Shown here in pieces: positions 11,275 to 40,950 of a stretch of 64,000 nt of DNA (its first letter is position 1; every line of letters starts with the position of its first letter). Made by a program: the position numbers and the translations under genes. Source of the DNA: Gemmatimonadaceae bacterium (GTDB lineage Bacteria > Gemmatimonadota > Gemmatimonadetes > Gemmatimonadales > Gemmatimonadaceae). The stretch spans positions 62,001 through 126,000 of the forward strand of contig JADZDM010000021.1 of NCBI GenBank assembly GCA_020851035.1, written 5' to 3'. The notes under the pieces are model-generated. The model had not been told where the DNA came from. It saw only the letters and a program-made list of their open reading frames with translations, and made no database searches.

Positions 11275-11533
11275 TCGATGAGGGTGACGCGAGTGCGCCG
11301 GCGGCGGAGATGGCCGGCTGACGGGAGTGATGGCGGGAGGTTCGCGACATGCCCATCCACGCGGGCGCGGTTCTGACAGCCCTTGTGGCCGTAGATCCGC
11401 GGGAGCGGGATGGGACATATCGCAACCGACCTGTGCTGGATGTGCTACGGGCGGCCTCCGTAGTGCTATCGCGGAGGTGTTGCATTGACCCGCTCGATGC
11501 GAAGAACCGACGCATCGACCTACGTCGCGATGG

Positions 11534-20250: not shown

Positions 20251-21714
20251 TCACTTACAGAGTCCAGATTCGTACTGCACGACGGATGAGGAATCATCGA
20301 GATCCACACCGAGTTCGCGGTCCAAAGCTGCCCGCAGGAAGCGCGCGAGCGGAGCGGCATGGTGTCCACGGGATTCGTCAGGTTCAGCGCTCGCCAAGCA
20401 CCGACGCAATTGCCAGCCGATGGCAGCAGCTAGAGGCACAGGCACGGCATTACCAATCTGGGTGTACCGCGGCGCCTCGCGCACCGTTTCACCACTGCGG
20501 ACGTCTCCCGCGCGACGGTCGCCGCCAGTTGTACGAGGCCCCTTGAACTGGTACCAGTCGGGGAAACCTTGCAGCCGGGCCCACTCGCGCACCGTCAACG
20601 AGCGTGATTGTGCGAAATGCACGTAATCATCTGGCAGCGACGCAACAGTGATACCCGGCGCCCTGTCGCCCCACGTTGCTGGAAGGGCGCGCTGCGCGAA
20701 CTTCTTCGTGCGCTGCGCTTCCGGAACTTCCTTCCCTTGTCGGATGAGCCCAAACCGCGCTCGCACATGTGCGGCGTGCCGGCTGTACGCTTGCTCCGCT
20801 AGAGGCGCACCCTTCCGAGTCGCGACACCGTCACCTGATACAGCCGCGCGCATGGCATGCTGCCAGCCTGCTCTCGCGGCAGCGGGGTACGCGCACGTCT
20901 CGAAGGCCCCCTTACAGCCGGCATGTGCCCACGCTTCCCAACTTGGATCAATGAGGTCGCCAAGGAGCTCCTCCATGTCCGGCAAAAATTCGCGCCGCCT
21001 CTCAGGCGATAGCGCAGGTGGCAGCAACAGCGCCTTTGTCGCAAGCTGTTCGTCACGCGCCGTGCAAGCGTTTATGGCCTGACGTGACAACGTGCGTACT
21101 GAAGGATGGGCAAGTTCACGTATTGCCTCCCACCGCTCCTCACGAAGACCGACCATGAGCACTCGCGGACGGTTCTGCGGCACGCCGAACTCGTAGGCCC
21201 GGACAACGTCGTACGCGATGACATACCTGTCCCCGAGCGTCCGTAGGAAGTGGCGACGAACCCGGTCCCAGACCTTTCGCGGGTCGTCCCGTGACCAGCG
21301 TGCGGACAGAAGCCCACGGACGTTCTCGAACAGGAACGCCTCCGGCTGCAGCTTGTCGATCACCGAAATCATGTCCTTGTACAGGTGGTTGGACGCGATT
21401 TCATGCTTCTCGACATCGCTATGCGTGCGTCGGTGACCGATGCCGGAGAACCCTTGGCACGGCGGCCCGCCCGCAACCAACGTCACGCGTTCGTTCCGGC
21501 CCAGTCCGGCAAGCCTCCGCAGCTTGCTGGGCTCGGCGTCTGCGAGCTGCCGCACGTCCGTCTCGACATGCACAGAGCCGTCGCGGTTGGCCACATAAGT
21601 GGCCCGCGCCGAATTGTTGAGCTCGGCTGCGAGCACAGGCACGAAACCGGCAAGCTCGAGGCCGAGGGATAACCCTCCGCACCCCGCAAACAGGTCTACA
21701 AGGGTGAGATTCAC
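20251..21714 (-). CDS. DNA (cytosine-5) methyltransferase
   Basis: 487 residues with the standard C5-methylase motif order: I (DLFAGCGGLSLGLE, residues 7-20), IV (GGPPCQGFSG, catalytic Cys about 86), VI (ENVRGLL), VIII (QNRPRVLMVG), a target-recognition segment, then IX/X (REWARLQGFPDWY, YTQIGNAVPVPLA). It transfers a methyl group from SAM to cytosine C5 in a specific sequence that cannot be predicted here. It diverges from a damaged vsr gene and lies at the head of a restriction-like operon, so it probably protects the element's own DNA. Confidence 0.95.
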   Translation of the reverse strand: MNLTLVDLFAGCGGLSLGLELAGFVPVLAAELNNSARATYVANRDGSVHVETDVRQLADAEPSKLRRLAGLGRNERVTLVAGGPPCQGFSGIGHRRTHSDVEKHEIASNHLYKDMISVIDKLQPEAFLFENVRGLLSARWSRDDPRKVWDRVRRHFLRTLGDRYVIAYDVVRAYEFGVPQNRPRVLMVGLREERWEAIRELAHPSVRTLSRQAINACTARDEQLATKALLLPPALSPERRREFLPDMEELLGDLIDPSWEAWAHAGCKGAFETCAYPAAARAGWQHAMRAAVSGDGVATRKGAPLAEQAYSRHAAHVRARFGLIRQGKEVPEAQRTKKFAQRALPATWGDRAPGITVASLPDDYVHFAQSRSLTVREWARLQGFPDWYQFKGPRTTGGDRRAGDVRSGETVREAPRYTQIGNAVPVPLAAAIGWQLRRCLASAEPDESRGHHAAPLARFLRAALDRELGVDLDDSSSVVQYESGLCK

Positions 21715-21719
21715 TTCGT

Positions 21720-22258
21720 GTGCATTCGGATCCGCTTCCTAAGGGCCGCAAGGATCACGGAAAGCTAAGGCCCAGTCACGTCACCTTCCAGGCGAGCACG
21801 ACGCGCGACCAAACCTTGCCAGCTCAGCAGCGCTCTGATCCTACCTTCGCAAGTACGCCAGAGGCTCGGCGTCGCATCTGGCGGGCGATACGGGGAGTGG
21901 GAAACCTCACTACCGAGGCTGCCTTCGCGGTCCTGCTCCGGAGGCACGGCCTCTCTGGTTGGCGGCGACACCAGCCGTACCCGGGTCGCCCAGACTTCGC
22001 GTGGCGCCGCGAAAAGGTCGTCGTATTTGTTGATGCGGTTGCTTTTGGCACGGCTGCCCCAGGCACTATCGGCCGCCGCGCGCAAACCCCGAATTCTGGG
22101 CCACCAAGGTTGCGACAAATCGTGCACGAGACCGACGAGTGACCAGGGCGCCGCGTGCTTCCGGCTGGCGGGTGGCGCGAATCTGGGAGTGCCGATTGCA
22201 CGAGCCTGCTACGTTGTCCCGTGTCGCCCGGGCTCTTGGACGCAATCTTCGGGAATAG
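21720..22258 (+). pseudogene. vsr: very-short-patch repair endonuclease, frameshifted
   Basis: Frame 1 encodes ARRRIWRAIRGVGNLTTEAA, then RPDFAWRREKVVVFVD as in Vsr. At 22035-22036 two extra bases (gc) break the frame. The next frame continues exactly with GCFWHGCPRHYRPP, NPEFWATKVATNRARD and GWRVARIWECRLHE and stops at 22258. Vsr nicks T:G mismatches created by deamination of 5-methylcytosine, so it partners the adjacent methyltransferase. As written it is inactive; a single sequencing error could also explain it. The start is unclear (GTG 21720 or a later TTG). Confidence 0.85.
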
Positions 22259-22351
22259 TCCGAGACAAACGCCCGCCGCACCCTGCCCCCTGAAGCCCGT
22301 GACATTTCAGGGCGGTGTGGTGAACGCCAAAAGATTATCCCGCTGGGCTGG

Positions 22352-22378
22352 TTGACTCCGCCGGGCATAAGGATAAAT
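22352..22378 (+). promoter_or_regulatory. possible promoter of the DptFGH-like operon
   Basis: TTGACT at 22352-22357 and GATAAAT at 22372-22378 lie just upstream of the operon. Spacing to the second box is short (14-17 bp depending on register), so the call is tentative. If correct, translation would start close to the RNA start or from a later codon. Confidence 0.3.
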
Positions 22379-22386
22379 CCGCTACC

Positions 22387-24648
22387 ATGAGGCGACTGTC
22401 AGGGCCTCGTGCTAAATGTTCGTGCGCACGTGCCATTGCCGAAAAGGAACGCGCGTCCGCGCACGCCCCCCCTCTGAAGAAGCCAGCCCGGGTCCCACCT
22501 GCTCATCTGGCATCCCCCTTTGCCCACACTGTGTCAGAATCTGCGCTGATTGCGAACACCTACCCACGGGGGCTCCTCGATTGGGCAGGACACCGGACCG
22601 GCGGTGTTCGCCGGCTGTTCTATGGCGCGACAGGCCGCCCGGCTGGGGACTTGATTGAGACACCTCTCTTGTCACGGCTTCGAGACTGGGCTCGCGACGT
22701 GGCTGGCCGTCATGCTGACGCTCCACGCATCGTGCTTCTCGTCGGCGGGCCGGGCAACGGTAAGACGGAGGCGGTTGAGGAGGCGATCCGCGCCTTGGAG
22801 CGTGAACTCGCGCTCGATGGCGAGCTTGAGGCAATTCTTGCCCCACGCTTCGCGCCGACCGACGGATCCACGGTTCCGCGACTTGTCCAAGTAGACATTG
22901 GCTCAGCGCTCCGCTCCGCGCGCGAGTTGGTACTCACTCTGGTGCAGGACGCGTCGGTTGCCGACCCTGCGTTAGCTGGGCAGAGCGCGGCCGCTCTGTT
23001 AGTTGATGATCTCGAGCGAGAGGTCGCAGCGGACAAGTCGCATGTCTACTTGGCGTGCGTAAATCGCGGCGTCCTTGATGACGCGCTCATCCTCGCAACG
23101 GAGAGTGGCCGGGAGAACGTTCGCGCCCTGATTGAGGCGGTTGTTCGAGCCGCCGGCACTGGTCTCGCGGCCCCCCGCTGCTGGCCACTCTTGGACTTTG
23201 CAGCGGTCGCGGTCTGGCCGATGGATGTGGAGTCCCTCTTGGTGACGCGCGACGTGCCAGAGGATGAGCCCAGCGACTCACCTGCGATGCAAGTGCTCGC
23301 ATTGGCCACGACGGCCGATAGGTGGCCAGCCGAGGGTACCTGCCCGGCGGGCGACCGCTGCCCGCATTGTAGCAGCCGCGGGCTGCTGGCCGGGGCGAGG
23401 CACCGGACATCGCTCCTGCAGGTGTTGCGATGGTACGAGCTTGCCTCAGGAAAACGATGGAGCTTCCGCGATCTGCTCTCCCTGTTGTCCTACGTGTTGG
23501 CAGGAGCACCAGTGGAGGCCGCGGGGACTGTCCTCGGGCCCTGCGAGTGGGCCGCGCGGCTGCTAGAGATGAATGCCCGCGGGTCCGGCAAACCAGATGC
23601 CACGCGGCTCGCGGCCCCCTTCCTCCTTGTGGCTGCCCAATACCAGCACGCGCTCTTCGGACAGTGGCCACGCCTCGGACGGGCAGGAATTCGGTCCGAC
23701 CTCAAGGAACTGGGACTGGAGCAGGACAGCACGCTGCTCGGACTGCACCACTTCCTCACCATGGACCGCACGGCGTCCATTCCTGGCACACTCCGCGACC
23801 AACTGGCGAGCATCTGTGCGTTGCTCGATCCCGCGCTCGCAGACCCCGATTCGGACGTGGACGTGAGTGCGCGCTCTAAGGTTCCTTTGCGTGAGCTTGA
23901 CGCCCGATTCAGCCATGGCGTACGCGAGGGGCTCACGATGATTCGTCGGTATCACAGCCTCTCACCGCTCGAGGTCGACCTCCTCACTCGCCTCGCTGAA
24001 GCTGATGAGCGAGTCGGTGCGTCAGACGTCCGTCGGCGCCGGCCAGCAACCGCGGCACGCATGCACATGCTCCTGCGCGATTTCGCGTGCCGCATGGTCC
24101 GGCGCAGTCTTGGGGCAGCAGCAGCGGTCGTGCGCGATGCGCAGGTGCTGCGCGACTTTGAGCACGTGATCGCTGGCGATGAGCAGCTCCTGTACAACGC
24201 GGTCAGGGAGGTAGAAAGACAGCTCAATGACCGAGAACACTTCGTGGTCGACCTGACAACGACGTTCGGGGAGCCACTGCCGCCAGAGACCAGGCGCGTG
24301 GTGCTTCGCACTGACCGGCAGAAGGTGCGCGTACCAACGGCCACCGGGGCAGGACGCCCACGGTCTGACCTTCGCTACCTGTCTGCCGGGAAAAACGCCG
24401 CGAGTCAGGCAATCCCGCTGACCTACGAGCTGTTTCGTTCAATTCGCGAACTGCAGGACGGCATGCTCAGCGCCTCGTTGCCGCGCGCAGTAAAGGCCTC
24501 ACTCGACGCGGTTCGTGCGCGTCTCGCGGGTCGCGTCGTACGAGATGAAGAGCAGTTAGATCAGGCAAGAATTTTCATCGGGATTCGCGATGATGTCATC
24601 GTCCGCGAAATGGGCAAATTCCTCGTACGCGACAGAGCCGAGCAGTGA
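22387..24648 (+). CDS. DptF-like P-loop ATPase of restriction operon
   Basis: Up to 753 residues; a GTG at 22531 is an alternative start that removes a low-complexity N-terminus. Walker A GGPGNGKT is at about residues 120-127. ACVNRGVLDDALILA follows, then a cysteine cluster CPAGDRCPHC at about 319 and WSFRDLLSLLSYVLAG. This order and the two following genes suggest the DptF protein of phosphorothioation-dependent restriction (DndFGH/DptFGH), which supplies ATPase activity. Its stop overlaps the next start (GTGA). No dndBCDE modification genes are nearby; a 5mC methyltransferase is instead. The family call is from motif memory and gene order, not a database search. Confidence 0.5.
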   Translation: MRRLSGPRAKCSCARAIAEKERASAHAPPLKKPARVPPAHLASPFAHTVSESALIANTYPRGLLDWAGHRTGGVRRLFYGATGRPAGDLIETPLLSRLRDWARDVAGRHADAPRIVLLVGGPGNGKTEAVEEAIRALERELALDGELEAILAPRFAPTDGSTVPRLVQVDIGSALRSARELVLTLVQDASVADPALAGQSAAALLVDDLEREVAADKSHVYLACVNRGVLDDALILATESGRENVRALIEAVVRAAGTGLAAPRCWPLLDFAAVAVWPMDVESLLVTRDVPEDEPSDSPAMQVLALATTADRWPAEGTCPAGDRCPHCSSRGLLAGARHRTSLLQVLRWYELASGKRWSFRDLLSLLSYVLAGAPVEAAGTVLGPCEWAARLLEMNARGSGKPDATRLAAPFLLVAAQYQHALFGQWPRLGRAGIRSDLKELGLEQDSTLLGLHHFLTMDRTASIPGTLRDQLASICALLDPALADPDSDVDVSARSKVPLRELDARFSHGVREGLTMIRRYHSLSPLEVDLLTRLAEADERVGASDVRRRRPATAARMHMLLRDFACRMVRRSLGAAAAVVRDAQVLRDFEHVIAGDEQLLYNAVREVERQLNDREHFVVDLTTTFGEPLPPETRRVVLRTDRQKVRVPTATGAGRPRSDLRYLSAGKNAASQAIPLTYELFRSIRELQDGMLSASLPRAVKASLDAVRARLAGRVVRDEEQLDQARIFIGIRDDVIVREMGKFLVRDRAEQ

Positions 24649-26186
24649 GCGTCGAATCCTTCCTTAGCAGCCCGTGGACATGCTCACACCCTGCCTACGA
24701 GAACTCGTCATTCAACCTGCGGCCCGCGCCTGAATTTGCGACGGCAGAAGTCGTGCTCGCGTCAACGTATCGTGCCGCTGGCTTCCTCGGCGTGACAGAG
24801 GGCCAGATTCCCGCGCAGGGTCGTGAGCTGGACAAACGCTCGCGCAAAGTCCGCAAGAGTGTAGCGGGGCCAAGACAAATCGAGCAGGACACGTGGAGAA
24901 CGATCCTACATGGGGCGCTTCAAAGCCCCAAACAGCCGCAGCAATCAGCGAAGAGATTCCTGCAGCTAAGTCCTGTGATCCCAGACACTGCGCTCTACTC
25001 TGGGTCAGCTCGCCTGAGCGGCAATTCCTGGAATCCTGGGCAGCTGGTGTCCGCGATGGTCGCCATCGGCTGCCCCAGCGATGAGGCGGCGCAGTCTCTC
25101 TGGAGTGAATTGCACGACGCTCTCAGCGTGGGCGAAGACGACGATATCTGGGCACGGTGGCTACAGCTCGAATTCGAGCGCCAACGATTTGTGACGGTTG
25201 ATTGGCAGCCGCGGTCCATCTCCGCACTATGTCGTTGGCCAGCGCAGGAGCGCGAAGGGCTTCATTTTCCTGCACGCCAATTCGTGCTTGACCTTCGTGC
25301 CGTCTTGCGAGCGAAGCGGCAAATGACGCGGCGCCAGTGGTCAAGCCTACTCGAGTCAGTTCTCCGCATCGGTGCGGTGGCTCACGTCATGTGGCTCTGT
25401 GAGGTCAGCGACCGCCTTTGGAGAGAACTGCGCGCCGTGCTTGGGGGCAGTCACGCACCATCTGCGGCGGCGCTCACGCGCACGCTCGTGGCTCCTGCCA
25501 GTCGCAGCCTGGTATATGGATCACCAGCGATACCCATCGTGCGTGATCGAGCATCAGGATACCTGAACGCGCGGCTCGGGATCAACCTGGTACTCCACGA
25601 GCTGGAGCTGCAGGGGATTTCGACCGGTTCGCTCGACTCACTCGCCGATGTCTCGGCATTTCTGGCATCAGTACAGTCCCGCTCCGCCAAGCTCGCGGAG
25701 CGCGATGTGCTCGGAGCGTTAGCCAAGCTGCAAGATGAACAAGCGCGCACACTCGCGTGCAAACGCGGAATCGGCTCCAACATCGCCGAGTTTTGCCGCC
25801 ACAGCCTCGGCCAGCGCCAGACGGCAGATGACAGCTTGCGCGGCTATGACCAGGGCTTCCACCTGAAGAAGCGAGGCGGATACGCTGCCGCCCCATGGGT
25901 GGTCTCGCTTGGCCCAGTTGCACTCCTGACGCTCGTTCACTGCTGCCTCGCGGAGGCAGCTGGTCCCAGGTCTGTACAGCGACTCTCTGAGCACCTCGAG
26001 TGCTACGGCCTCAAGGTGTACCCCGACAACTTCGCCACGGGCGAGATTGGGCGGAGCTTGCGGATGCTTGGCCTCGTTTTGGATAGCCCCGATGCGGAAA
26101 GCGGGATGTTACTTGTTCCGCCGTTCGAGATTTCACGAGACGTTGGCGCGCGCCGTCGTGACGTCGAGAATGGAGGCATTGAATGA
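24645..26186 (+). CDS. DptG-like middle protein of restriction operon
   Basis: 513 residues from GTG 24645, overlapping the previous stop. No catalytic motif is seen. The N-terminal part contains SSFNLRPAPEF and a lysine-rich KRSRKVRKS; the rest is helical and ends LRMLGLVLDSPDAESG. Position between a DptF-like ATPase and a DptH-like giant protein, and overlaps on both sides (GTGA, ATGA), make it the expected third component. Sequence alone would not identify it. Confidence 0.45.
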   Translation: MSVESFLSSPWTCSHPAYENSSFNLRPAPEFATAEVVLASTYRAAGFLGVTEGQIPAQGRELDKRSRKVRKSVAGPRQIEQDTWRTILHGALQSPKQPQQSAKRFLQLSPVIPDTALYSGSARLSGNSWNPGQLVSAMVAIGCPSDEAAQSLWSELHDALSVGEDDDIWARWLQLEFERQRFVTVDWQPRSISALCRWPAQEREGLHFPARQFVLDLRAVLRAKRQMTRRQWSSLLESVLRIGAVAHVMWLCEVSDRLWRELRAVLGGSHAPSAAALTRTLVAPASRSLVYGSPAIPIVRDRASGYLNARLGINLVLHELELQGISTGSLDSLADVSAFLASVQSRSAKLAERDVLGALAKLQDEQARTLACKRGIGSNIAEFCRHSLGQRQTADDSLRGYDQGFHLKKRGGYAAAPWVVSLGPVALLTLVHCCLAEAAGPRSVQRLSEHLECYGLKVYPDNFATGEIGRSLRMLGLVLDSPDAESGMLLVPPFEISRDVGARRRDVENGGIE

Positions 26187-29100
26187 GCAAGCTCATTGCC
26201 GAGCTCGCATCACGCGTCGAGGCACAGATGCGTGCGATGGTGCGCACGCTTCAGCGTCCGGATGCGGAGCTCCGCAGCGTGTTCCACGGACCTCCGGTCC
26301 ACTACATGCAACTCGTCCTCGAGCGGCTTGCTTCAGAGGATGGACTGCAGCTTGAGTTGGCGGATGGCACACCTGTGACGCTTCCAGTGCTCTTGCCCGC
26401 TCCATCTCTCGCCAACGGTCGTGGCAACCCTGCTGTTGGAGCTTCAGGACTTTGCGACCGCGACCACCTGATTGCGCTGCGTAATACGCCGGCCTGCCCT
26501 CGATTCTTGACGCTTGCGACTCCAGGCCAAGATGCGATCCTTTCCCTCGGGAACACGCGCGATGAGTTCGGCGTCGCGCAGGCAGCGAACGGCGGCAGCG
26601 CCACCGTTGATGATTGGTGGCACGACCGTTTTGTGCAGGAGATCGTGGACGCCGCGCTCTCGCGCACCGATTGGCGCGGTGAGAAAGAACGCGCAGATGC
26701 CGTGGCGCTCCTCGAGCGCGCAGTTCGAGCGGCGGATGCCGCAGATCAGCACAATGACCGGGAGAGACGCCGGTGCTGGGCCGCGCTGGCACGGGTCCTG
26801 GCAATCAGCGACCCGAGTGTTCCCTTCGCGACTCAATGGAGCCTTGCATGCGGCTTCCCGCCGACAGGCGCTGGAGTTGACAAGGACCAGCAGACCAAGG
26901 CTTTGAGGCATTTGGTTGAGTTGGTGGAGAACAACGGGTTCGCTCCCACGGCGGAGCGCCTTCGACAGGGAGCCAGCGAGGACGAACAACTCGCCATCGA
27001 CTTGTGTCTTCGGCACCTTCGCGACAATTGCGACCGAGCGAATGCGCTAACGACTGAAACGGCGCCATTCTATTTCGGACCGTGCGCGTCAGACGACCTT
27101 TCCGAGCCTCCTCGCTGGTGGAGCGTGCTCACTTCGGGTCGCCTCATCGAATTGATGGAGCAGGACAGCGATGGTCCCGCTCCCGGTGCGCTTGGGCTCG
27201 AATGCACGAACGCGCTTGTGAAGGCTGGCCGCGGACTACCCATTGTCGTCGCAGGTCCCGTTGAACTGCGGTTTTCGGGCCCAGCCGAAACCGATGGACC
27301 GCTCGACGGCACGGTGACCCGTCAGGCGCCGGGAAAAGGCAATCGCCGCGAGTGGATAGTGGACACCCTCGGCAACCCAGACGTGCGCGACGATGGCCTC
27401 CCGCCGCACGAGCGTCCCGTTCCGTATGTCGCACTGTCGGGAAGCCACAAGAAGGCGACCGTTCGTGTCGTGTCGCTCGCCTCATGGGGGGCGGGCGTGG
27501 TCGTGACCTGCAGGAACGCCGTGAAGCTGGAGCTGCCGCGTAGGACCAAGGCCGGAAGCCAAGTGACACACGAGTGCAACCTGTCATTGAGTGGCGAAGC
27601 GCGACACTTCTTGGACATCCACGTCGCGAGTGGGATTGCGCTCGGCCCTATAGCAACCGGCGAGGACGCGAGCACCGCCGGCGCAGCTCCACTCTCAGCG
27701 ATGGTGGTACCGCCTGTCGCGGAGTCGGGCGGGCCATGGGGCGTCGACTTGCTCGCGACAAGCGAGTGCTACTACGACCTCGCCGTCCAGTGGCCCGATG
27801 GCACAAGCGCAACACTACGGCTCAACATCACATGTGTGGAGGCGCCGAGCGAGGGGTGCCGCAGCGTGTTCGACCGGCTCGTGCGGGTCAATCGCGCGCA
27901 AGATCGCACTCGTGGGGGCTTGGTTGTGCAGATCGACCGCCAGTCTCGACTCGCCGACCTTCAGGCATGGGCTCTCGACGCTGACGCCGTGGCGCGCTCG
28001 TTCTATCCCGTCGTCATTTCCTCAGACTGCGCAGAGTGCTGGCGTCCGCCATCATGGGAGACGGAGGAAGGGACTGTCATCTCCCGAGGCCGCTTCCTTC
28101 ACGATCCCCGTCCAAGCTTCGACGAGCTTGTCCCACCCGAAGCGTTCGTCCTTGCGCGCACTGAACTGGCGGCTCGCATTAGAGGAGAGGATGGGCACGG
28201 GCTCATGGAAGCTGCGGAGCTCGGGTTGTGGCTGCAACAAGCCGAGTCTGCCGAGCTGCTCGACGCGTACGTGCGCGCGTACTTCTCATGGCTTTCCGCG
28301 GCACCAGACGCTGCGGCGTGGGTCGACCTCGTCGTCGTCACGGAGCTCGAACGGGATGGCCGCACGCTCGCACAGGAGCCCGACGCTGTTCTCGTATCAC
28401 CCTTGCACCCACTCAGGCTTGCCTGGCAGGCGCTTGCGCAGCGCGTGCTCCTTGATGCGTCCCGTGCGGGTATGCCATGTCCCGCCGGGAGCATTCTCGA
28501 TCCAGACGGTATCCCCGACATCCTCGCCCTCCCGCTGCGCACCGCGGGCGGAAGTACGCGCCGAGTTCCGATGTTGGCGACAGAGTGCGGCTCGGACTCG
28601 TGGGCTGTCCTGTGGAACGGCACGAGGGTTGGGCGGCTCGGCACGCATGGAGCGCTCGCACCGTTCGACAAGGAGCTCGGACTCCAACTTGGTGGGGTGA
28701 CGAGTGGCTTCAGCGCCTCGCAGGTCTGCCGCGCGCTCGACGATGTCGCGACGCTGCTCACAGCGAAGCCGATCCTGAACGTCTTGGTGGCAAGCAGCCT
28801 AGGGCAAAGTGAGGCATGCAACGAAGGCTTACTCGACTGGGCTCGCGACCGATTCTCGGTAACAGAGGCTGGCCCGCGTCCGCTGCTCGCGATGGGTTCG
28901 CGTGAGCTTCAGGTGTACGATGAGCGCAGCGACGCTGCACGACCGGAGGCGTCAGAAATCGCCAACTTGGCGGAAGACACGGATGCGGCGGTTCGCTGGT
29001 ACGCGGGCATGCCAGCCGGTCCGCGTCCGGACCTCGGGATCATCGCGCAGCTTGAGACGACGAACGCCGGAGCGGAACAGGTTTCGACAGCGTCGCCCCT

Positions 29101-31849
29101 GAGCACTGGGGCGCTCGTCCGGCACAGAATCAGGACGCAGCTCAGCGCGGGCGCAGGGGCCTTCTTGAGCGAGAGCCGAATGGCGACAGCCGGCCCTCCG
29201 TCTGGCGATGCGCTGGCCGACCACGTCGCGGCCACGACAGCCCTGCTCGAGAACCTCGGAGACACACGACAGGGCTTCACCTTCGCGCCAAGCGTTCAGG
29301 CGGTGAGCACCCTGGTCAACGACCGGAAGGCAGAGTTCACGGCGGTCTCCTCGAGCGCCGTGGATCCGGCGTGCTTTCTTGGTGGCTGGCTTGAGGGCGC
29401 GTACCTCTGGGACTATGAACTTCCGTCGTACTCCCACCGGGCAGGCGACACCAGCGGCTACTACCTCCTCTCGCGCGTCAAGGACGTCGACCGCGAGGCG
29501 CTGCGCGAGCTCCTGAAGCGGCTGCCCGGGTGCGACGGCATGGATGACGAAGCCGTATCCGGAATTCTCTTCGAGGTAGCACGGCGCGGCATCCCGACCG
29601 TGCGTGGCCTCTCCGCCGGACACTCAGGGGCTGCGGGTGACCTAGGGCTGTTCATGGCCGGGCGCCTGCTTCAAGACGAGTTCAGGGGCGCCACTGGTTC
29701 GGCAGGACTACTCCCAGTGCTGCGCAGCGATGGCGAGGTGCAGGAAGTCGCACTGGTCATCCCGGTAGACCCGTTCCGCGGCTACATGCAGGACCTGCAG
29801 CGCGCGCTTGGCATGTCGCAGCTGTTGCGGCCAGACCTCTTGGTCGCCGCGATGGTGATCACCGACTCATCCGTTCGGATTCGTGTGACGCCCGTCGAGG
29901 TCAAGTACCGACAGGAGGTCATGAGCACGTCGGATCGCCGAGATGCCCTCGCCCAGTCGGCTGCGCTCGCCGAACTCCTTGAGAAGGCACGCAGCCGAGG
30001 TACTGAGTCGGGCCTCGTGATCTGGCAGCTTGCGTTCCAACACTTGCTGCTGACGATGCTGGACTTTGGCTTCCGCGTCTACAGCCAACAACCCGCAGCC
30101 CTTCGCGCACCTGCAGACTGGTCTCGCCTCCACCAGCGTGTCAGTGCCGCGATTCTTGGCGATCTTGCCAGCGTCGAGATTGATGCCATTGGAAGGCTCG
30201 TGGTCTTTGATGGCTCACCGTCGAGTGCCCAACGCGATGTCAACGACGACGGGCATCACGAGTCGATCATCGTGAACACGCGAGACGGCGCAGAGATCGT
30301 GCATGGCCGCTCGGAAGCGCTGGTCGACGCAATTCGCACGGCTGTTGGCGATTGGGGTTTCTATCCGACTGGAACGTCACGTGTGCAAGCTGACATGCAA
30401 GCGGCTGACCTTGGTGCAAGCAGGCCTTCGTCGCCCGCACCTTCGGAGACCAAGAGCGAAAACCGACCAATGAGCGTCACAACGCCCGTTCAATCGCCTG
30501 AGATCCTGAAGGACGCGACGGAGCCCACCACGGGTGCGAGCACTTGGGTTGACTCCGATACGACTACTTCTGCGGTTGATGGTGACCCATTTGACGGCAC
30601 GTACGCTCCCATCTCAACGGGTCTTGAGAGTGCGGTGCGAGAAGTACCTGTGCCGAACGATCAGCAGTTGCCTGCAGCTCCACCTCCGATGCGACCGATC
30701 AGCAAGCCAGACGGCATAGGCGTGATCATCGGGAGCACTGTCGATGACTTCCGAACCGAAGAGAAGTTGCTGCGCCCGAGCATGACGCGACTGAACCAGC
30801 TGAACATGGGCGTCGTCGGCGACCTCGGCACAGGCAAGACGCAGCTCGTCAAGTCGATTGTGTACCAGATTGCATCTTCGTCGGCTTCCAACGACGGTAT
30901 CAAGCCGCGGTTCCTGATCTTCGACTACAAGAAGGACTACGCTGCTGCCGACTTCGTAGAGGCGGTGGGGGCAAAGGTCGTGATGCCGCACCAACTGCCG
31001 TTGAACCTATTCGACACCCGCGGCACGGTCGGCGTACCGCCGTGGATGCCACGCTTCAAGTTTTTCGCGGACGTGCTCGGCAAGATCTACAGCGGCATTG
31101 GGCCGGTCCAGCTAGGAAACCTGAAGCAGGCGGTGAAGACGTCATACGAACGTGCTAAGGCGGCGGGTCGCGAAGCCACGATCTATGATGTCCATGACAC
31201 GTACCACGCGCTCGTGCAGGGCAAGCTTGACGCTCCGCTGTCGATCATCAGCGACATGGTCGACATGGAGCTCTTCACAAAAGAGCCGCTCGAGGCTGGC
31301 GCCTTTGAGAGGTTCCTCGACGGGGTGGTGGTGCTCTCCCTTGACCAGCTCGGGCAGGACGACCGCACGAAGAACATGGTGGTCGCCATCATGCTCAACC
31401 TGTTTTACGAGCACATGTTGCGCCTTCCAAAGCGCCCCTACCGCGGAACCGACCCACAGCTGCGCACGGTGGACTCCTACCTGCTGGTCGACGAGGCAGA
31501 CAACATCATGCGGTACGAGTTCGACGTCCTGCGTTCGGTGCTACTGCAGGCGCGAGAGTTCGGCGTGGGAGTGATCCTCGCCTCCCAGTTTCTCCGCCAC
31601 TTCAAGGCGGGAGCTACGGACTACCGCGAGCCACTGTTGTCCTGGTTCATCCACAAGGTTCCGAACGTCACGGCGCAGGAACTGGCAGCACTCGGAATGC
31701 CGGGGAGCAGTTCGGAGCTTGCCGCGCGGGTGCAGCAGCTCGAGAACCACCAGTGCCTGTTCAAGACCTTTGACGTCCCGGGAGTGGTCGTGCAGGGGCT
31801 TCCATTCTATAAGTTGCTGCAGGAGCACCGAGGTCAGCCGGCACGGTGA
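26183..31849 (+). CDS. DptH-like giant protein: PD-(D/E)XK region plus HerA/FtsK-type ATPase
   Basis: 1888 residues. The first about 1200 residues have no motif I recognise. Near residue 1239 VEVKYR, following a strand with TDSSVRIRV, fits a PD-(D/E)XK nuclease core. A low-complexity linker covers about 1410-1510. The C-terminus is a HerA/FtsK-like motor with Walker A GDLGTGKT (about 1546), DYKKDYAAADF, PLNLFD and Walker B LLVDEAD (about 1767), then ILASQFLRHF. This matches the layout of DptH/DndH, the translocase-nuclease of PT-dependent restriction. ATG overlaps the previous TGA (ATGA), so the three proteins are made together. What it recognises here is unknown. Confidence 0.55.
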   Translation: MSKLIAELASRVEAQMRAMVRTLQRPDAELRSVFHGPPVHYMQLVLERLASEDGLQLELADGTPVTLPVLLPAPSLANGRGNPAVGASGLCDRDHLIALRNTPACPRFLTLATPGQDAILSLGNTRDEFGVAQAANGGSATVDDWWHDRFVQEIVDAALSRTDWRGEKERADAVALLERAVRAADAADQHNDRERRRCWAALARVLAISDPSVPFATQWSLACGFPPTGAGVDKDQQTKALRHLVELVENNGFAPTAERLRQGASEDEQLAIDLCLRHLRDNCDRANALTTETAPFYFGPCASDDLSEPPRWWSVLTSGRLIELMEQDSDGPAPGALGLECTNALVKAGRGLPIVVAGPVELRFSGPAETDGPLDGTVTRQAPGKGNRREWIVDTLGNPDVRDDGLPPHERPVPYVALSGSHKKATVRVVSLASWGAGVVVTCRNAVKLELPRRTKAGSQVTHECNLSLSGEARHFLDIHVASGIALGPIATGEDASTAGAAPLSAMVVPPVAESGGPWGVDLLATSECYYDLAVQWPDGTSATLRLNITCVEAPSEGCRSVFDRLVRVNRAQDRTRGGLVVQIDRQSRLADLQAWALDADAVARSFYPVVISSDCAECWRPPSWETEEGTVISRGRFLHDPRPSFDELVPPEAFVLARTELAARIRGEDGHGLMEAAELGLWLQQAESAELLDAYVRAYFSWLSAAPDAAAWVDLVVVTELERDGRTLAQEPDAVLVSPLHPLRLAWQALAQRVLLDASRAGMPCPAGSILDPDGIPDILALPLRTAGGSTRRVPMLATECGSDSWAVLWNGTRVGRLGTHGALAPFDKELGLQLGGVTSGFSASQVCRALDDVATLLTAKPILNVLVASSLGQSEACNEGLLDWARDRFSVTEAGPRPLLAMGSRELQVYDERSDAARPEASEIANLAEDTDAAVRWYAGMPAGPRPDLGIIAQLETTNAGAEQVSTASPLSTGALVRHRIRTQLSAGAGAFLSESRMATAGPPSGDALADHVAATTALLENLGDTRQGFTFAPSVQAVSTLVNDRKAEFTAVSSSAVDPACFLGGWLEGAYLWDYELPSYSHRAGDTSGYYLLSRVKDVDREALRELLKRLPGCDGMDDEAVSGILFEVARRGIPTVRGLSAGHSGAAGDLGLFMAGRLLQDEFRGATGSAGLLPVLRSDGEVQEVALVIPVDPFRGYMQDLQRALGMSQLLRPDLLVAAMVITDSSVRIRVTPVEVKYRQEVMSTSDRRDALAQSAALAELLEKARSRGTESGLVIWQLAFQHLLLTMLDFGFRVYSQQPAALRAPADWSRLHQRVSAAILGDLASVEIDAIGRLVVFDGSPSSAQRDVNDDGHHESIIVNTRDGAEIVHGRSEALVDAIRTAVGDWGFYPTGTSRVQADMQAADLGASRPSSPAPSETKSENRPMSVTTPVQSPEILKDATEPTTGASTWVDSDTTTSAVDGDPFDGTYAPISTGLESAVREVPVPNDQQLPAAPPPMRPISKPDGIGVIIGSTVDDFRTEEKLLRPSMTRLNQLNMGVVGDLGTGKTQLVKSIVYQIASSSASNDGIKPRFLIFDYKKDYAAADFVEAVGAKVVMPHQLPLNLFDTRGTVGVPPWMPRFKFFADVLGKIYSGIGPVQLGNLKQAVKTSYERAKAAGREATIYDVHDTYHALVQGKLDAPLSIISDMVDMELFTKEPLEAGAFERFLDGVVVLSLDQLGQDDRTKNMVVAIMLNLFYEHMLRLPKRPYRGTDPQLRTVDSYLLVDEADNIMRYEFDVLRSVLLQAREFGVGVILASQFLRHFKAGATDYREPLLSWFIHKVPNVTAQELAALGMPGSSSELAARVQQLENHQCLFKTFDVPGVVVQGLPFYKLLQEHRGQPAR

Positions 31850-31938: not shown

Positions 31939-33972
31939 ATGCGCGTAGAAAAGCTCGCGATTGAAAATTTCAGACTCTTGCTGAGCGCGGAGATGTCGCT
32001 CGAAAGGACGACAACACTGATTGTCGGGCGCAACAACAGCGGCAAAACTTCGATCACTGAGTTCTTCGCTCACATCATGGGCGAAGAACCAAAACGGCTT
32101 CGCCTTGAGGACTTCTCTGCCGCAACACGAGATAAGTTCCTGACCGCCAAGCAACTGCGTCAAGAAGGCAAAGACGATGACGACGTTCTCGCGGCGCTAC
32201 CGATCATTGCCGCTACGATCTTCGTTTCGTACGATCCGGACGAGCCACTTGGCGCGCTTGCGCCGTTCGTGGTCGACCTTGACCCTGATTGCAAGTCCGC
32301 CAAGATACGCATCGAGTACCGGCCGTCGCGTACATCCCTCGCACTACTGCTTCACCCGCCCTTTACAGCGGGTGGTTCAGAAGACACCGCGCATTTTTTC
32401 GGGAACCTGCGCGATGCGATTCCCAAGGCCTACGAGTACCACGTTACAGCCGTTGACCCAAACGATTCAACGAACGTACGCGCCGTTGAGCTGAGACAGC
32501 TCAGCATGCTCTTTCAATGTGGGCTCGTAAGCGCCCAAAGGTTTCTTGACCACAACAAGCGCGGCGAACCAAACATTCTTGGCAGGCTCCTTGAAGGCCT
32601 GTTCACGACAGCATCAAGCGCCACCGCGACGACAGCTGACCAGGCAATTGCGGCAGAGCTTAAAGTCGCGGTCGCGACAGTCGAACAAAGCATTCATGCC
32701 GGCTTCAACGAGAAGCTCACGGCATTGCTCCCGAGAATCAAAAGTTTTGGATACCCAGGTCTCAACGACCCAGACTTGCGCACACAGACAGCACTAAATG
32801 TCGCCAGTCTGCTCAGCGAGCACACGAAGGTCTTCTACACCGGGGCTCATGGCGTCCATTTGCCTGAGGGCTACAATGGCCTTGGCGCTAGAAATCTCAT
32901 CTACATCCTTCTCCAGCTTCTAAGCTTTCACAAGGCCTTTCGTGCGAAAGCGACGTTGCCTGGAGTGCATCTGATATTTATAGAAGAACCTGAAGCTCAC
33001 TTGCACCCGCAAATGCAGGAAGTCTTCATCAAGCAATTGAGTGCAGCAGTTCAGGCCTTCTCTGGAGAATATCCCGACCAAGAATGGCCTGTCCAGTTTG
33101 TCGTAACTACGCACTCGTCTCACATTGCAAACGCCGCCCCATTTGACTCGGTTCGCTACTTTCTTGCTAGAACCGCAAGCGATGAGACGTCACGGGAAAC
33201 CGTGATCAAGGATTTCCGGAAGGGAGCAGACGGAATCAACGCGACCGACCGGAAGTTCCTGCATCAATACATGACGCTGACAAAATGCGACCTGTTTTTC
33301 GCCGACAAGGCGATTCTCATTGAAGGTGCGACCGAACGCCTTCTGATGCCACGGATGTTCGCCTTTATTGACGCCGGACTGGAAGATTCCAAGAAGCTAT
33401 CGCACCAGTACGTCTCTACAGTGGAGGTCGACGGAGCGAATGCGAAGATCTTCACGCCGCTACTCGACTTTCTCGAACTGCGGTCATTGGTGATCACCGA
33501 CCTTGACGCCGTAAGGCTCGGCAACGGAAATCGCTACGTAAAATGCCCCTACTCGCAGGGAGAGCGATCCATCAACACGACGCTTCGCGACTGGTTCTCG
33601 GCGAAGCCGGACGAAGCGCTCACGCTCGAGACACTGAAAGCCAAGGCGCCTGAGGAGAAGATCCGCGGCTATCGTCGGATTGCATATCAGATCCACGAGG
33701 CCGGCTCACTCTACTGTGCGCGCACGTTTGAGGATGCGTTCATCCTCGCCAATCCCTCACTGTTCGACCTAAAGGATGGCGAGCACTGGGGCGACGAGTC
33801 ATTCGAGATCGCTGCAGATATGAGCAAAGTCGAAACTGCACTCAAGTACGGCCTCTCGGACGACGAGTGGCACGTTCCTGCATACATTCGCGAGGGGCTT
33901 CTCTGGCTTGCGGAGCCCACTCCGCTGCCCATGCCACAAACCTCTAGTGGGGAGGTGCTTCATGCCACCTGA
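31939..33972 (+). CDS. OLD-family ATPase/TOPRIM nuclease, GajA-like
   Basis: 677 residues. N-terminal ABC-type ATPase: Walker A GRNNSGKT (residues 30-37) and Walker B FIEEPEAHLHP (about 347). A C-terminal TOPRIM domain follows: ILIEGATE (about 459) and ITDLDAV (about 521). OLD nucleases of this layout paired with a UvrD-like helicase form the Gabija phage-defence system, in which the nuclease cuts DNA when nucleotide levels fall. The next gene is that helicase and overlaps by 11 bp. Codon use is less GC-biased than in flanking genes, suggesting separate acquisition. The 90-bp gap from the DptH-like gene suggests a distinct unit. Confidence 0.8.
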   Translation: MRVEKLAIENFRLLLSAEMSLERTTTLIVGRNNSGKTSITEFFAHIMGEEPKRLRLEDFSAATRDKFLTAKQLRQEGKDDDDVLAALPIIAATIFVSYDPDEPLGALAPFVVDLDPDCKSAKIRIEYRPSRTSLALLLHPPFTAGGSEDTAHFFGNLRDAIPKAYEYHVTAVDPNDSTNVRAVELRQLSMLFQCGLVSAQRFLDHNKRGEPNILGRLLEGLFTTASSATATTADQAIAAELKVAVATVEQSIHAGFNEKLTALLPRIKSFGYPGLNDPDLRTQTALNVASLLSEHTKVFYTGAHGVHLPEGYNGLGARNLIYILLQLLSFHKAFRAKATLPGVHLIFIEEPEAHLHPQMQEVFIKQLSAAVQAFSGEYPDQEWPVQFVVTTHSSHIANAAPFDSVRYFLARTASDETSRETVIKDFRKGADGINATDRKFLHQYMTLTKCDLFFADKAILIEGATERLLMPRMFAFIDAGLEDSKKLSHQYVSTVEVDGANAKIFTPLLDFLELRSLVITDLDAVRLGNGNRYVKCPYSQGERSINTTLRDWFSAKPDEALTLETLKAKAPEEKIRGYRRIAYQIHEAGSLYCARTFEDAFILANPSLFDLKDGEHWGDESFEIAADMSKVETALKYGLSDDEWHVPAYIREGLLWLAEPTPLPMPQTSSGEVLHAT

Positions 33973-35701
33973 GACGTTATCGCCTGCCCGGCAAGCCGCA
34001 GAGAGCGCCCAAGCCAGAGTCAACTACTGCATCGACAACAACATATCGTTTCGACTTGAAGCGGGAGCAGGAGCTGGAAAGACCTACTCTCTAGTTCATA
34101 CGCTGCAAAGACTCCTCACGAATCGCGGTGACACGTACATCCGCCGTGGCCAGAAGATCGCTTGTATTACCTACACTAACGTGGCGAAAAGGGAGATTGC
34201 GCTTCAAATCGACGACCACCCAGCAGTGATTGTTGAGACTATTCATGCGTTTTGCTGGGGATGCATGAGCCAATATCAATCCGCTCTGCGGACAGAGCTT
34301 GGGAGCCTAACACGTCACGCGGAGAAGATCGGAGAAGCGGGTGGTCTTGGCAACCGACGTATTGAGTACGACCTCGGCTTCTTCGGTGTTCATGAGGACA
34401 GGATCACTCTTCACCACGACGATGTCCCAGAGTTGATGGCCAAGTTTCTGGCAATGCCGAAGTTCCAGCAGATCTTCGCGAGAACTTACCCGGTAGTCCT
34501 TATCGATGAATACCAAGACACCAGTTCCGCTTTCATGGGTGCGCTGGCCACTCATTATCTGGAACCCAAGACCGGACCGCTGATCGGACTTTTCGGCGAT
34601 CACTGGCAGACGATCTATCGGGACGACTTCGACCTGGCGACGTTGCCAAACGTGGAGGGGATCAACAAGGGAGCGAACTTTCGCTCTGCGCGCGCTATCG
34701 TCGACATGCTCAATCGCCTTCGCCCCGACTTACCTCAAGTCGTCGATGATGAGACGGAGCAAGGGGAGGCTCGGGCATTTCACTTGAACACATACACGGG
34801 AGAGCGGTCGGATACAGCACACTCGAAGTTCGACACTCCACCGGATGTCACAAGAGCCTACGTTGCGACGCTACGTGCACGACTCGAGAAGGAGGGCTGG
34901 GACTTTTCCGCAGGCGTTACGAAAGTCTTGATGCTGACACACGCTTCACTCGGGGCTGAGCAGGGCTATCCCTCAATCGCTGAGATCTTCAAGTCCTATT
35001 CAGACGCGCTCTCAAAGCTTGACGATGTCACCCTTGATTTTCTCGGCAGAGTCGTCGAACCGATGTGTGCTGCATACAATTCAAAGGAATACGGGAAGAT
35101 GTTCGAAGTGCTCGGCCGCACGAATGTGCTGCGGGTGCCTTCAGAGAAGCAGGCCTGGGCAGACGACATGAAGTCTCTCGAGGTTCTGCGGGCAACTGGA
35201 ACGGTCGGCGATGTGCTGGATTTGCTGAAGACGACGCAGCGCCCTCGATTGGCTGACGGCGTGAGTCGGCGAGAGTGCGACATCGCGGTGTTTGATCCGA
35301 CTGCGGGTGAGCCAGAGAAACCTTCTGTTGACAGACATCGGCGATTGCGTGATGTCAAGTACCAGGAGCTCGTTAGTCTAGTTCGGTTTGTGGAAGGATT
35401 CACGCCCTTTGCAACTCAGCACAGCGTGAAAGGCGCCGAATTTGAGAACGTGTTGGTCGTATTTGGTGGAGGCTGGAACCATTACAACTGGCCACGAATG
35501 CTCGAGTACATGGTTGATGGCGCGACGCCTACGGCTGCACATCAGAAGGGATTCAGCCGGGCGAGAAACCTGTTCTACGTTAGCGTCTCCCGGCCGAGGC
35601 GCCGCCTAGCCGCCCTTTTCACACAGACGATGAGTGCCAAGTCCCTCACGGTGCTAGACAAACTGTTTGCCGGCAACGTCGCTGCTGTGAACATTCCTTG
35701 A
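33962..35701 (+). CDS. UvrD/PcrA-like helicase, GajB-like
   Basis: 579 residues from ATG 33962, preceded by GGGGAGGTG within the end of the nuclease gene; this rejects the longer frame to 33908. Walker A AGAGAGKT (about residue 34), motif Ia-like ACITYTNVAKREI, Walker B LIDEYQDTS (about 181), GDHWQTIYR and the C-terminal YVSVSRPRRRL are superfamily-1 helicase motifs. Paired with the overlapping OLD nuclease it corresponds to GajB, which senses DNA ends or nucleotides in Gabija. Confidence 0.8.
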   Translation: MPPETLSPARQAAESAQARVNYCIDNNISFRLEAGAGAGKTYSLVHTLQRLLTNRGDTYIRRGQKIACITYTNVAKREIALQIDDHPAVIVETIHAFCWGCMSQYQSALRTELGSLTRHAEKIGEAGGLGNRRIEYDLGFFGVHEDRITLHHDDVPELMAKFLAMPKFQQIFARTYPVVLIDEYQDTSSAFMGALATHYLEPKTGPLIGLFGDHWQTIYRDDFDLATLPNVEGINKGANFRSARAIVDMLNRLRPDLPQVVDDETEQGEARAFHLNTYTGERSDTAHSKFDTPPDVTRAYVATLRARLEKEGWDFSAGVTKVLMLTHASLGAEQGYPSIAEIFKSYSDALSKLDDVTLDFLGRVVEPMCAAYNSKEYGKMFEVLGRTNVLRVPSEKQAWADDMKSLEVLRATGTVGDVLDLLKTTQRPRLADGVSRRECDIAVFDPTAGEPEKPSVDRHRRLRDVKYQELVSLVRFVEGFTPFATQHSVKGAEFENVLVVFGGGWNHYNWPRMLEYMVDGATPTAAHQKGFSRARNLFYVSVSRPRRRLAALFTQTMSAKSLTVLDKLFAGNVAAVNIP

Positions 35702-38277: not shown

Positions 38278-40950
38278 TCACTCTAAGATGCTTGCGCGCC
38301 ACCTTTGAAAATCATCTCCATATGCGCTGCCCTCCGGCAAACGCTCGCAGGCATCGCGAGCTGTCGAACGGGCCTCGGTGATAAGATCCAGAGCGAGCTC
38401 AGCATTCGCGAGGTGTCGAAGAGTCCACGCGTGATCGTTCGCCCCAATCTGCTTCTCCAGAACTGCGCGCAGGCGCAACACAGCGTCGCCTGGTCGGCCG
38501 AGCTGAGTTTCAAGCCGCGCTGCGTGTCCTTGCCCATAGGGGTTGTCCGCTGCGGCGAAGAATGTCAATGCCTGAGTGAGATTTGCCTCGCGCCGCGCGG
38601 GGTCGTGTTCAGCGGCATTCTCATAGACTTCCGCCCAAGCTGTTCGCTCGTTCGCGTGGGTCACGTCCGTGAGCGACGGAGCAGGCAAGGCGTCGAATAC
38701 TCTCCAGAATGAGTCTCGGTCCACCGACCGCCAAACCTTTGCGAGGGCCCCGAATGCGAGAGGGCCGAAAGGTAGCCCACGGCGTGCGGCGCTCATGATG
38801 AGCGGTTCAAGAAGACCGATGAACTCCGGAAGTGTTGTGGCCAAGTCTACGCCGGCTGCGTGACGCCGCAGCAATTCGGCAGCAGCCAGCGTAGCTGGCA
38901 TACTGACCCGCCCCGGCTCGTCCCTCGCCTCCCGCAAGAGGCCGAGGAGTAGTTCGCGAGCCCGATCTCCCCCGTCAGGAACGCAAACACCGCGAGGAAG
39001 TTCAGTAAGCGTGCGCGCAAGGAGAAGCCGAACAACCGGCGGCCCTTCGTCCGGCTCCACACTGGCCAGAAGGCCTTCAAGATCTGCAACTGCCTCTTCA
39101 TGCCGACCGAGCAGCTTCAAAGCGCGCGCGCGATGGTGTCGCACATAGACCTTCTCCTCCGCAGGGACAAACGCGCTTGCGAGCAGAGAATCGAAAGGCG
39201 CGAGGAGCTCGGCGTCGGTCACAGCCGGAGCATCCAAGGTCCCCTTTTGCAAACGCACGAGCGCCTCGGCGAGTTCGCAAGCGGCACGAGCACCAAATGC
39301 ATCTCCGTCTGCAGCGACAGTGTTCGCAAGCTCAATCGCGCTGGGGAGCATGCTCGCTGTGACGTCACGCGGCACTCCGCTCTGCAGCGAAGCGTACAGG
39401 TGCCCGTATCGCCAGTTGCCGGAATGCAGGATATCCCAGAGAAGAGATTTGTGCACGCGAGCAAGGTGTTTCACCAACATCGCGCGCGCTTCGCTGTTCG
39501 CCAAACTTCGGACATATGCATCCAGTGCATTCTCTAAATCATTGACCGGAATCGTGAGTGCGGGAGTGAGTGCGGGCAGGCTTGACCAGATGAGGTCATG
39601 CAGGCGGAGTGTGTCTGGCTCATCGCCAGTCACGAGCCCGTACCTTTGGAGCGTCCGCGCCGCGTCTGTCCCAATCGCGCTACGAAAGAAGCCCGAATGC
39701 ACTCGCGGCGAGCGACACCACGCGAAGAGCGCGAGCGCTCTCTCAAGCACTGCCCGACGGTGGGAAAGGACAACGTCAACTAGGCGCTGAGCGCGCTCTG
39801 GCACCGTCAGCTCGCCAACGCGCGAAACTTCCGCGGCCACGTCTGCCCACTCCGCCCCATCGCGCGCAAGTCCATTCAGGAGTCGCAGTGCCATCGGGTG
39901 CCCTCCGACTGCAGACATGATAGCTGCAAACGCTGTATCGGGGCACCGCTCCGCCTGATACTCAAGCAGCTGTCTTGCCGCTGCGAGAGACATCGGCGGC
40001 ATCACTACCGTAAAAGGAGTTTTGATGAACTGCTGCGACGTCACGATCACACGAGCATCGACGAAGCGTGCGTCCCGAATCTGCTCAAGCACTTGCTCGA
40101 TTGAGGATTTCGACTGCAGATCGTCGAGAACCAGCAGGCATTGGCGAGAGCGGAGCATCGCCTCCAGGTTGATGCCCATACCCCGACGTGCGACGTCGAC
40201 GGCACCGAGGTCCTTCACGTCTGACACGGACAACTCTGTTGTCCAGATCGGCCAAGCGAACTGGTCTTGCAATTGGTGCGCAACAGAAAGCGCAGTCACG
40301 GACTTGCCGTCACCGCTTAGGCCTGAAATGAACGCGATTCCGTGTGCGTTTAGAGCAGCGACGACCGCATCCTCTACCTCAGCCCGCACAACCACACCGG
40401 ATGGCAGACTCGGAATGTTGTTTGTCGAAGCATAGAGATCACGAAGCTGTCGAAGTGGCTCTAGGTGACCGGCAAGCGTGTCGTATGCAGCCTCATCCTC
40501 GATAACGACGTCTGCAATGTGCTCAGCGAGGCGCCTCGCATCGTACACATCGAGGACGATCCCGTCTGATTCCCAGACTTGATCACGCCAAGCCGTGACC
40601 GCAGTGAATTCGGCTGCTGTCGCTTGTTGCGATGAGAGCAGATAGATCTTCTTGGCCATTGGAAGGAGTCGACGAACGTGGTCGTAATCCATCGCTGGCT
40701 TCTTTAGATCATCGAAATAATTATCTGCTGTTCCATACTGCGCCGCAACATCTCCCTCTGCGCTGTAGCTGTCGATGGTATAGCCTTGGGGATTGCCCTT
40801 GACACCTTGCCCGCGGTGCAGGAGAGGGATCTCGGCGAGGAATTCGGCGAGCAGATCACCTACAGGCTCCCAGGCCACCCCCGACAAAGGACGGATGACA
40901 CGCACAAGTTCGTAGATCAGGGTGTGGCGGGCGTCCGGATGGAGACTCAT
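38278..40950 (-). CDS. STAND NTPase, Avs-like, with N-terminal effector-like domain
   Basis: 890 residues. The first about 150 residues form a domain (YTIDSYSAEGDVAAQYG, KKIYLLSSQQATAAEF, then GIVLDVYDARRLAEHI) that looks like a restriction-endonuclease-fold effector; the catalytic residues are not clear. The NTPase core has Walker A GLSGDGKS (about 209), Walker B LLVLDDLQS (about 270) and GHPMALRLLNGLA, as in NB-ARC/STAND proteins. The C-terminal half is helical repeats (HRARALKLLGRHEEAVADL) typical of sensor TPRs. STAND proteins of this layout detect phage proteins and trigger the N-terminal effector. It lies at the right edge of the first island, 310 bp before displaced queG copy 1. Confidence 0.7.
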   Translation of the reverse strand: MSLHPDARHTLIYELVRVIRPLSGVAWEPVGDLLAEFLAEIPLLHRGQGVKGNPQGYTIDSYSAEGDVAAQYGTADNYFDDLKKPAMDYDHVRRLLPMAKKIYLLSSQQATAAEFTAVTAWRDQVWESDGIVLDVYDARRLAEHIADVVIEDEAAYDTLAGHLEPLRQLRDLYASTNNIPSLPSGVVVRAEVEDAVVAALNAHGIAFISGLSGDGKSVTALSVAHQLQDQFAWPIWTTELSVSDVKDLGAVDVARRGMGINLEAMLRSRQCLLVLDDLQSKSSIEQVLEQIRDARFVDARVIVTSQQFIKTPFTVVMPPMSLAAARQLLEYQAERCPDTAFAAIMSAVGGHPMALRLLNGLARDGAEWADVAAEVSRVGELTVPERAQRLVDVVLSHRRAVLERALALFAWCRSPRVHSGFFRSAIGTDAARTLQRYGLVTGDEPDTLRLHDLIWSSLPALTPALTIPVNDLENALDAYVRSLANSEARAMLVKHLARVHKSLLWDILHSGNWRYGHLYASLQSGVPRDVTASMLPSAIELANTVAADGDAFGARAACELAEALVRLQKGTLDAPAVTDAELLAPFDSLLASAFVPAEEKVYVRHHRARALKLLGRHEEAVADLEGLLASVEPDEGPPVVRLLLARTLTELPRGVCVPDGGDRARELLLGLLREARDEPGRVSMPATLAAAELLRRHAAGVDLATTLPEFIGLLEPLIMSAARRGLPFGPLAFGALAKVWRSVDRDSFWRVFDALPAPSLTDVTHANERTAWAEVYENAAEHDPARREANLTQALTFFAAADNPYGQGHAARLETQLGRPGDAVLRLRAVLEKQIGANDHAWTLRHLANAELALDLITEARSTARDACERLPEGSAYGDDFQRWRASILE

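Follow-up and report, generated by a model that had tools for sequence, protein, structure and literature searches.

In a 64,000-nucleotide stretch of DNA from a Gemmatimonadaceae bacterium (hereafter, the window), three overlapping genes encode proteins that, judged from profile comparisons and predicted folds, form a remote sister of the restriction complex DndFGH (DptFGH). Homologues of this F-G-H trio lie next to a gene for a C5-cytosine DNA methyltransferase (C5-MTase) in 61 of 62 usable loci, frequently in the company of a gene for the mismatch repair enzyme Vsr. The arrangement MTase-F-G-H-Vsr is a real cassette, usually encoded on one strand, and it probably represents a restriction-modification-like system in which 5-methylcytosine (5mC) takes the place of phosphorothioate as the self mark.

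Results

Gene organization of the window locus

The open reading frames previously placed in this region, namely a methyltransferase, an ATPase with a Cys cluster, a middle protein and an EVK nuclease combined with a HerA/FtsK motor, were all recovered in our analysis (Table 1). The C5-MTase gene is divergent to a three-gene F-G-H operon, whose reading frames overlap by 4 bp at both the F/G and the G/H junction. Since the homology of F to its relatives begins near residue 50, its true start is probably located at about position 22528 rather than 22387. The vsr named in the earlier note corresponds to a genuine similarity to Vsr between the MTase and F, but the gene itself is not intact. The window Vsr has decayed: its C-terminal half contains an in-frame stop, and tblastn places the N-terminal part just upstream, in a different frame.

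Table 1. Features of the MTase-F-G-H locus in the window
Feature	Position	Strand	Evidence
C5-cytosine DNA methyltransferase (P0004), 487 aa	20251-21714	minus	Pfam PF00145 DNA_methylase, 2.4e-52
vsr pseudogene, C-terminal half	21974-22252	plus	tblastn with rhizobial Vsr, 42% identity
F-like ATPase (remote DndF/DptF homologue), 753 aa	22387-24648	plus	hhalign to DptF, E 9.3e-5
G-like protein (remote DndG/DptG structural homologue), 513 aa	24645-26186	plus	AF2 model, PDB fold match
H-like protein (remote DndH/DptH homologue), 1888 aa	26183-31849	plus	hhalign to DptH, E 1.8e-39

The region is a defence island, since a complete Gabija system adjoins H directly downstream (31939-33972 and 33908-35701; PADLOC GajA 2.7e-265, GajB 1.9e-235). 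An 890-aa protein encoded at positions 38278-40950, which shows a weak nSTAND3 match (9.6e-4, below the cut-off) and no match in PADLOC, is possibly another defence gene. Upstream, a Recombinase-domain protein (6619-8787; Pfam Recombinase, 1.1e-10) may mark the edge of a mobile island.

Predicted relationship of F, G and H to DndFGH

The likeness to DptFGH suggested in the earlier note could be traced for all three proteins, but the homology is remote, emerging from hhalign comparisons for H and F and from the predicted fold for G. The curated models recommended for this purpose did not capture it: there was no match to the NCBIfam Dpt families, and PADLOC recognized the motor of H only.

H combines a nuclease motif of the PD-(D/E)XK type (RPD-1218...E1239-V-K1241) with a HerA/FtsK motor at about residues 1535-1878. 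The PADLOC DndH models match the C-terminal motor (1e-59, residues 1513-1878), and a comparison with the solved DptH motor (PDB 7es4) yielded 8.6e-47. A profile of the H family (63 sequences) aligned with canonical DptH over both nuclease and motor (probability 100, E 1.8e-39, columns 1210-1817), pairing the RPD...EVK motif with the DD...EVK motif of DptH. This motif is kept in all 63 H proteins, in 60 of them by the strict pattern and in three with one neighbouring residue changed.

DndH starts with an inactive SF2 domain, an HTH and two beta-sandwiches, and its nuclease is preceded by a target recognition domain and an inactive adenine methylase. In profile comparisons with DndH/DptH, the N-terminal 570 residues of H had no match; an N-terminal match obtained with the linker included was rejected, because the reversed control scored too. 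The middle of H gave a model with a pLDDT of 89, whose fold matches were weak (none below E 0.001); many of them were methyltransferases (such as 4g67, 3kr9 and, at rank 19, M.BseCI), and the Hachiman nuclease HamA was also among them. These matches are compatible with the DndH layout of inactive methylase plus nuclease, though no proof of it. The HerA motor of H was also matched by the mad8 profile of MADS (4.6e-14). An assignment of the trio to MADS was rejected, as the match is limited to the motor and the tested proteins matched none of the remaining mad components.

F and G lack matches to NCBIfam, PADLOC or Pfam families, except for weak generic AAA matches to F. The window F protein contains a Walker A motif (GGPGNGKT) and a Cys cluster. 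Its comparison with the DptF profile gave an E-value of 9.3e-5 over the P-loop, versus 0.59 for the reversed control, and the alignment pairs the Walker A motifs as well as a strand ending in N-x-G, the hydrophobic-N-x-G form of Walker B. Within the family, GxxGxGK[ST] is found in 61 of 62 F proteins, and an NRG motif, aligned to the N-x-G of DptF, in 56 of 62. An asparagine in place of the Walker B aspartate is a peculiarity of DndF, which in some cases also carries a zinc-chelating insert in its lid (PMC10853773); the conserved cysteines of F (Cys 319/325/328) are compatible with this optional insert.

For G, sequence and profile comparison with DptG produced no match (E 0.2). Structure prediction, one of the checks proposed in the earlier note, bore out the relationship: the AF2 model of G (pLDDT 90.8) has DndG (7exx) as its sole significant fold match in the PDB (E 1.6e-4, probability 1.00, TM 0.37/0.42), so that the predicted fold of G corresponds to the triple-wHTH fold of DndG.

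Distribution and composition of the cassette

A tblastn search of plasmids with H retrieved full-length relatives in Shinella, Sinorhizobium fredii, Rhizobium leguminosarum and Pseudoalteromonas, and a genome scan, for which H without its motor (A2) served as the query, added 63 further loci. Loci were analysed by ORF calling and phmmer and considered usable if F and H were present with usable flanks. The scan loci are mostly from Pseudomonadota, including P. aeruginosa PA7; other records are titled Phycisphaerae, Verrucomicrobia, Gemmatimonadetes, Chloroflexi, Acidobacteriaceae and a Bacteroidota genus.

In this survey, which the earlier note had called for, a C5-MTase gene was located at most 0.9 kb from the trio in 61 of the 62 usable loci (60/61 plus the locus L014 described below), whereas dnd modification genes accompanied none of them. 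The linked loci are spread over some 14 divergent H clades and, beyond Pseudomonadota, include MAGs or genomes titled Phycisphaerae, Gemmatimonadetes, Chloroflexi and Bacteroidota. In a 5 Mb genome with a single C5-MTase, this gene would by chance come to lie less than 1 kb from the trio with a probability well below 1%. The PPCQ and EN[VP] motifs are present in all MTases (62/62). At about 50 loci, the C5-MTase gene immediately precedes F in the same orientation, at a distance of up to 100 bp. The divergent MTase that had been described at the head of the operon is unusual; relatives normally have the MTase as a same-strand first gene. An intact Vsr is encoded in 42 of the 62 usable loci (41/61 plus L014).

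The rhizobial loci carry C5-MTase, F, G, H and Vsr, all on one strand. The order in Pseudoalteromonas (L009) is F, G, a small gene, H and C5-MTase; an HNH protein and a small SAM methyltransferase are encoded upstream. L014 (positions 339-11531 of this locus; from the same order as the genome of the window) shows the arrangement MTase-F-G-H-Vsr with very diverged F, G and H, such that the link is visible mainly by profile methods; a simple pattern search found no E[VILT]K motif in its H protein. The sole exception to the linkage is a verrucomicrobial locus (L074, 1251-14974) in which FGH is intact but neither the 4.6 kb upstream nor the 8.5 kb downstream contain a C5-MTase. There, FGH is preceded by a reverse transcriptase gene and followed by a gene whose 409-aa product carries an HNH domain at its C-terminus. 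At one further locus, from a MAG (L036), the MTase is split, perhaps by a sequence error.

At four loci (L030, L064, L034 and L040), a second C5-MTase adjoins the cassette, possibly reflecting an ongoing replacement or the gain of a further specificity. Solimonas (L054) and Bordetella hinzii (L057), which belong to different orders, have practically identical FGH, suggesting a very recent transfer or contamination. An H-like protein with 50% identity is also encoded on an unannotated 10.8-kb faecal contig deposited as 'Bacteriophage sp.' (MT836369.1, 6323-8833), which may be a bacterial fragment.

Sulfur-modification genes and canonical dptFGH loci

The earlier note had regarded a usual association of the homologues with dndBCDE as evidence against its proposal. 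At an E-value threshold of 1e-3, homologues of dndB, C, D and E were absent from all 62 loci, and DndC was absent genome-wide from all eight genomes searched, including that of the window; an Aliivibrio positive control was detected. The proposed arrangement with a C5-MTase instead of dnd modification genes is therefore strongly supported by 61 of the 62 loci. In six of the eight genomes, among them that of the window and P. aeruginosa PA7, the cassette MTase is the only C5-MTase, and the remaining two show either a single MTase split into halves or a surplus fragment of 31 residues. Seven canonical dptFGH control loci, drawn from plasmid records, have neither C5-MTase nor Vsr, and three of the annotated ones carry dndBCDE alongside. 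Searches with TIGR03237 over 394 genomes of the class and with DptH over 395 genomes of the phylum gave no match.

Exchange of methyltransferases between cassettes

The evolutionary distances of F, G and H correlate with each other at ~0.99, compared to ~0.55 for MTase versus FGH, all values exceeding those of 500 permutations. The lower correlation with the MTase suggests that the complex is not adapted to any single MTase lineage. At least ~11 changes between the five MTase core lineages have to be assumed on the FGH tree; this number is approximate, since the tree was built quickly and contains some long branches. In every replacement, the new enzyme is another C5-MTase. Two pairs of loci illustrate such swaps. 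L035 and L045 are 91% identical in FGH but carry unrelated C5-MTases, with 18% identity in the target-recognition region, and no part of FGH is unusually different except a disordered linker. Conversely, the target-recognition regions of L068 and L015 are about 92% identical and their H proteins only 31%. When F, G and H were screened for segments covarying with the target-recognition part of the MTase, the correlations were weak throughout (highest 0.36, G residues 1-60), and no clear specificity segment emerged in the three proteins. The swaps indicate either that FGH reads 5mC in several sequence contexts or that the replaced MTases share a target.

The M1 lineage, to which the MTases of the window, L031 and L035 belong, is always transcribed separately from FGH, and the nearest plasmid relatives of the window MTase lineage adjoin MvaI/BcnI-type restriction enzymes. 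Both features suggest that M1 was probably recruited from ordinary restriction-modification systems.

Discussion

The conserved linkage, the homologies, the intact active-site motifs and the absence of a sulfur-modification pathway form the basis of the restriction-modification-like model that we favour. In such a system, the C5-MTase would mark cytosines in the host DNA. The F-G-H complex would bind DNA and translocate along it by means of its HerA/FtsK motor, and the PD-(D/E)XK nuclease of H would cut unless the complex meets the 5mC mark of the host. By homology, the complex should translocate on and nick mark-free DNA, with G, given its predicted DndG fold, as the likely discriminator of DNA or modification and F as a nucleotide-binding regulator. 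Vsr, where present, would repair the T:G mismatches that arise by deamination of permanent 5mC marks. The cutting of unmarked DNA, its inhibition by 5mC and this division of labour are inferred, and the genetic linkage, the presence of Vsr and the repeated MTase replacement argue well for a restriction activity blocked by 5mC. Moreover, the genetics look like those of a restriction-modification system, with the writer first in the operon, the nuclease complex next and an enzyme that repairs the mutagenic consequences of 5mC; the window copy has an MTase of a different, separately transcribed lineage. DndFGH itself can be toxic without its modification, whereas modified DNA is protected (reviewed in PMC12707154). 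On the other side of the balance are the L074 locus without C5-MTase, the split MTase of L036 and the looser coevolution of MTase and FGH, as well as the N-terminal half of H, in which no match to DndH was detected, and the weak fold matches of its predicted inactive-methylase region. It is possible, and here we are more tentative, that base methylation has replaced backbone sulfur as the self mark of a translocating nuclease of the DndFGH type, and that this nuclease reads 5mC with no dependence on any one sequence, as suggested by the L035/L045 and L068/L015 swaps.

Alternatively, FGH might be a standalone defence complex triggered by invader signals such as nucleotides or modified bases, as proposed for DndFGH (PMC10853773), with MTase and Vsr travelling along as a separate solitary methylation unit that, for instance, shields the cassette or the host from other restriction enzymes. 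DndFGH has indeed been argued to be decoupled from modification genes (PMC10853773), solitary pairs of C5-MTase and Vsr exist (PMC12907096), and MTase and FGH are freely exchanged. However, a near-universal linkage over some 14 divergent clades and the repeated replacement of the MTase by another C5-MTase are hard to explain for a passenger, which makes this scenario unlikely. We consider it rather improbable that 5mC licenses or activates FGH instead of inhibiting it. Effectors that sense modification and are stimulated by the host mark are known, as described for SspE of sulfur systems (PMC8092258) and for DndI (PMC11662687). For DndFGH, the closest homologue, it has instead been described that the mark averts its action and that the complex is sometimes toxic when the mark is missing (PMC12707154).

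The physical link to 5mC is all that speaks for FGH as a 5mC-dependent, type IV-like nuclease directed against methylated invaders. With a resident MTase acting on the same genome, such a nuclease would be suicidal, and Vsr, from what is established about this enzyme, implies stable genomic methylation, so that this idea is very hard to uphold. Finally, as homologues of DptFGH, the three proteins could belong to a canonical phosphorothioate-dependent restriction module with dnd genes elsewhere in the genome and a coincidental MTase; the lack of DndC throughout eight genomes and of dnd genes at all 62 loci largely refutes this explanation, leaving it next to no credibility.

The cassette shares features with several known systems. 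Like DndFGH/DptFGH, it has three consecutive genes F-G-H, an H protein with a nuclease followed by a HerA/FtsK motor, a P-loop protein F with an asparagine in Walker B and a G protein with a predicted DndG fold; unlike them, it is remote in sequence and joined to C5-MTase and Vsr, never to dndBCDE. DndFGH has been described as a standalone system without a built-in modification module (PMC10853773, 2024), a statement repeated more recently (PMC12839542, 2026), and cytosine methylases were reported to replace phosphorothioation only together with a DndDE or CxC-DndE core (PMC10853773). Those CxC-DndE/DndDE systems resemble the present cassette in that cytosine methylation replaces phosphorothioation in a Dnd-related setting. 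However, the methylase of those systems is associated with the DndD/CxC-DndE modification core, whereas that of the present cassette accompanies a restriction module of the DndFGH type and has neither DndD nor DndE in its vicinity. With type II restriction-modification systems containing a V gene, the cassette has in common the combination of C5-MTase, Vsr and a PD-(D/E)XK nuclease, the intact motifs of an MTase adjoining the nuclease gene and, for the window lineage, an MTase also found beside MvaI/BcnI enzymes. In contrast to these systems, the restriction partner is no simple restriction enzyme but a translocase-nuclease set made up of three proteins that together comprise about 3,100 residues. 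ScmA/VsrA of Caulobacter was considered as a relative and dismissed: the MTase is solitary, Vsr is unlinked and no FGH is described (PMC12907096). Within the article texts covered, our literature search yielded no description of an MTase-F-G-H-Vsr cassette and no text linking DndFGH with Vsr or with a C5-MTase. The main text of PMC10853773 does not mention Vsr; the present loci may be among the DndF homologues counted in that study.

The frequent lack of a modification partner has made DndFGH difficult to explain. An FGH lineage tied to C5-MTase and Vsr in several phyla offers a clean case, in which mark, writer and restriction machine are united in one cassette. PADLOC and NCBIfam recognize only the motor of H, and the cassette thus represents an unannotated defence system for inclusion in catalogues. 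If our interpretation is true, this large translocating nuclease is able to change its coupling from one chemical mark to another.
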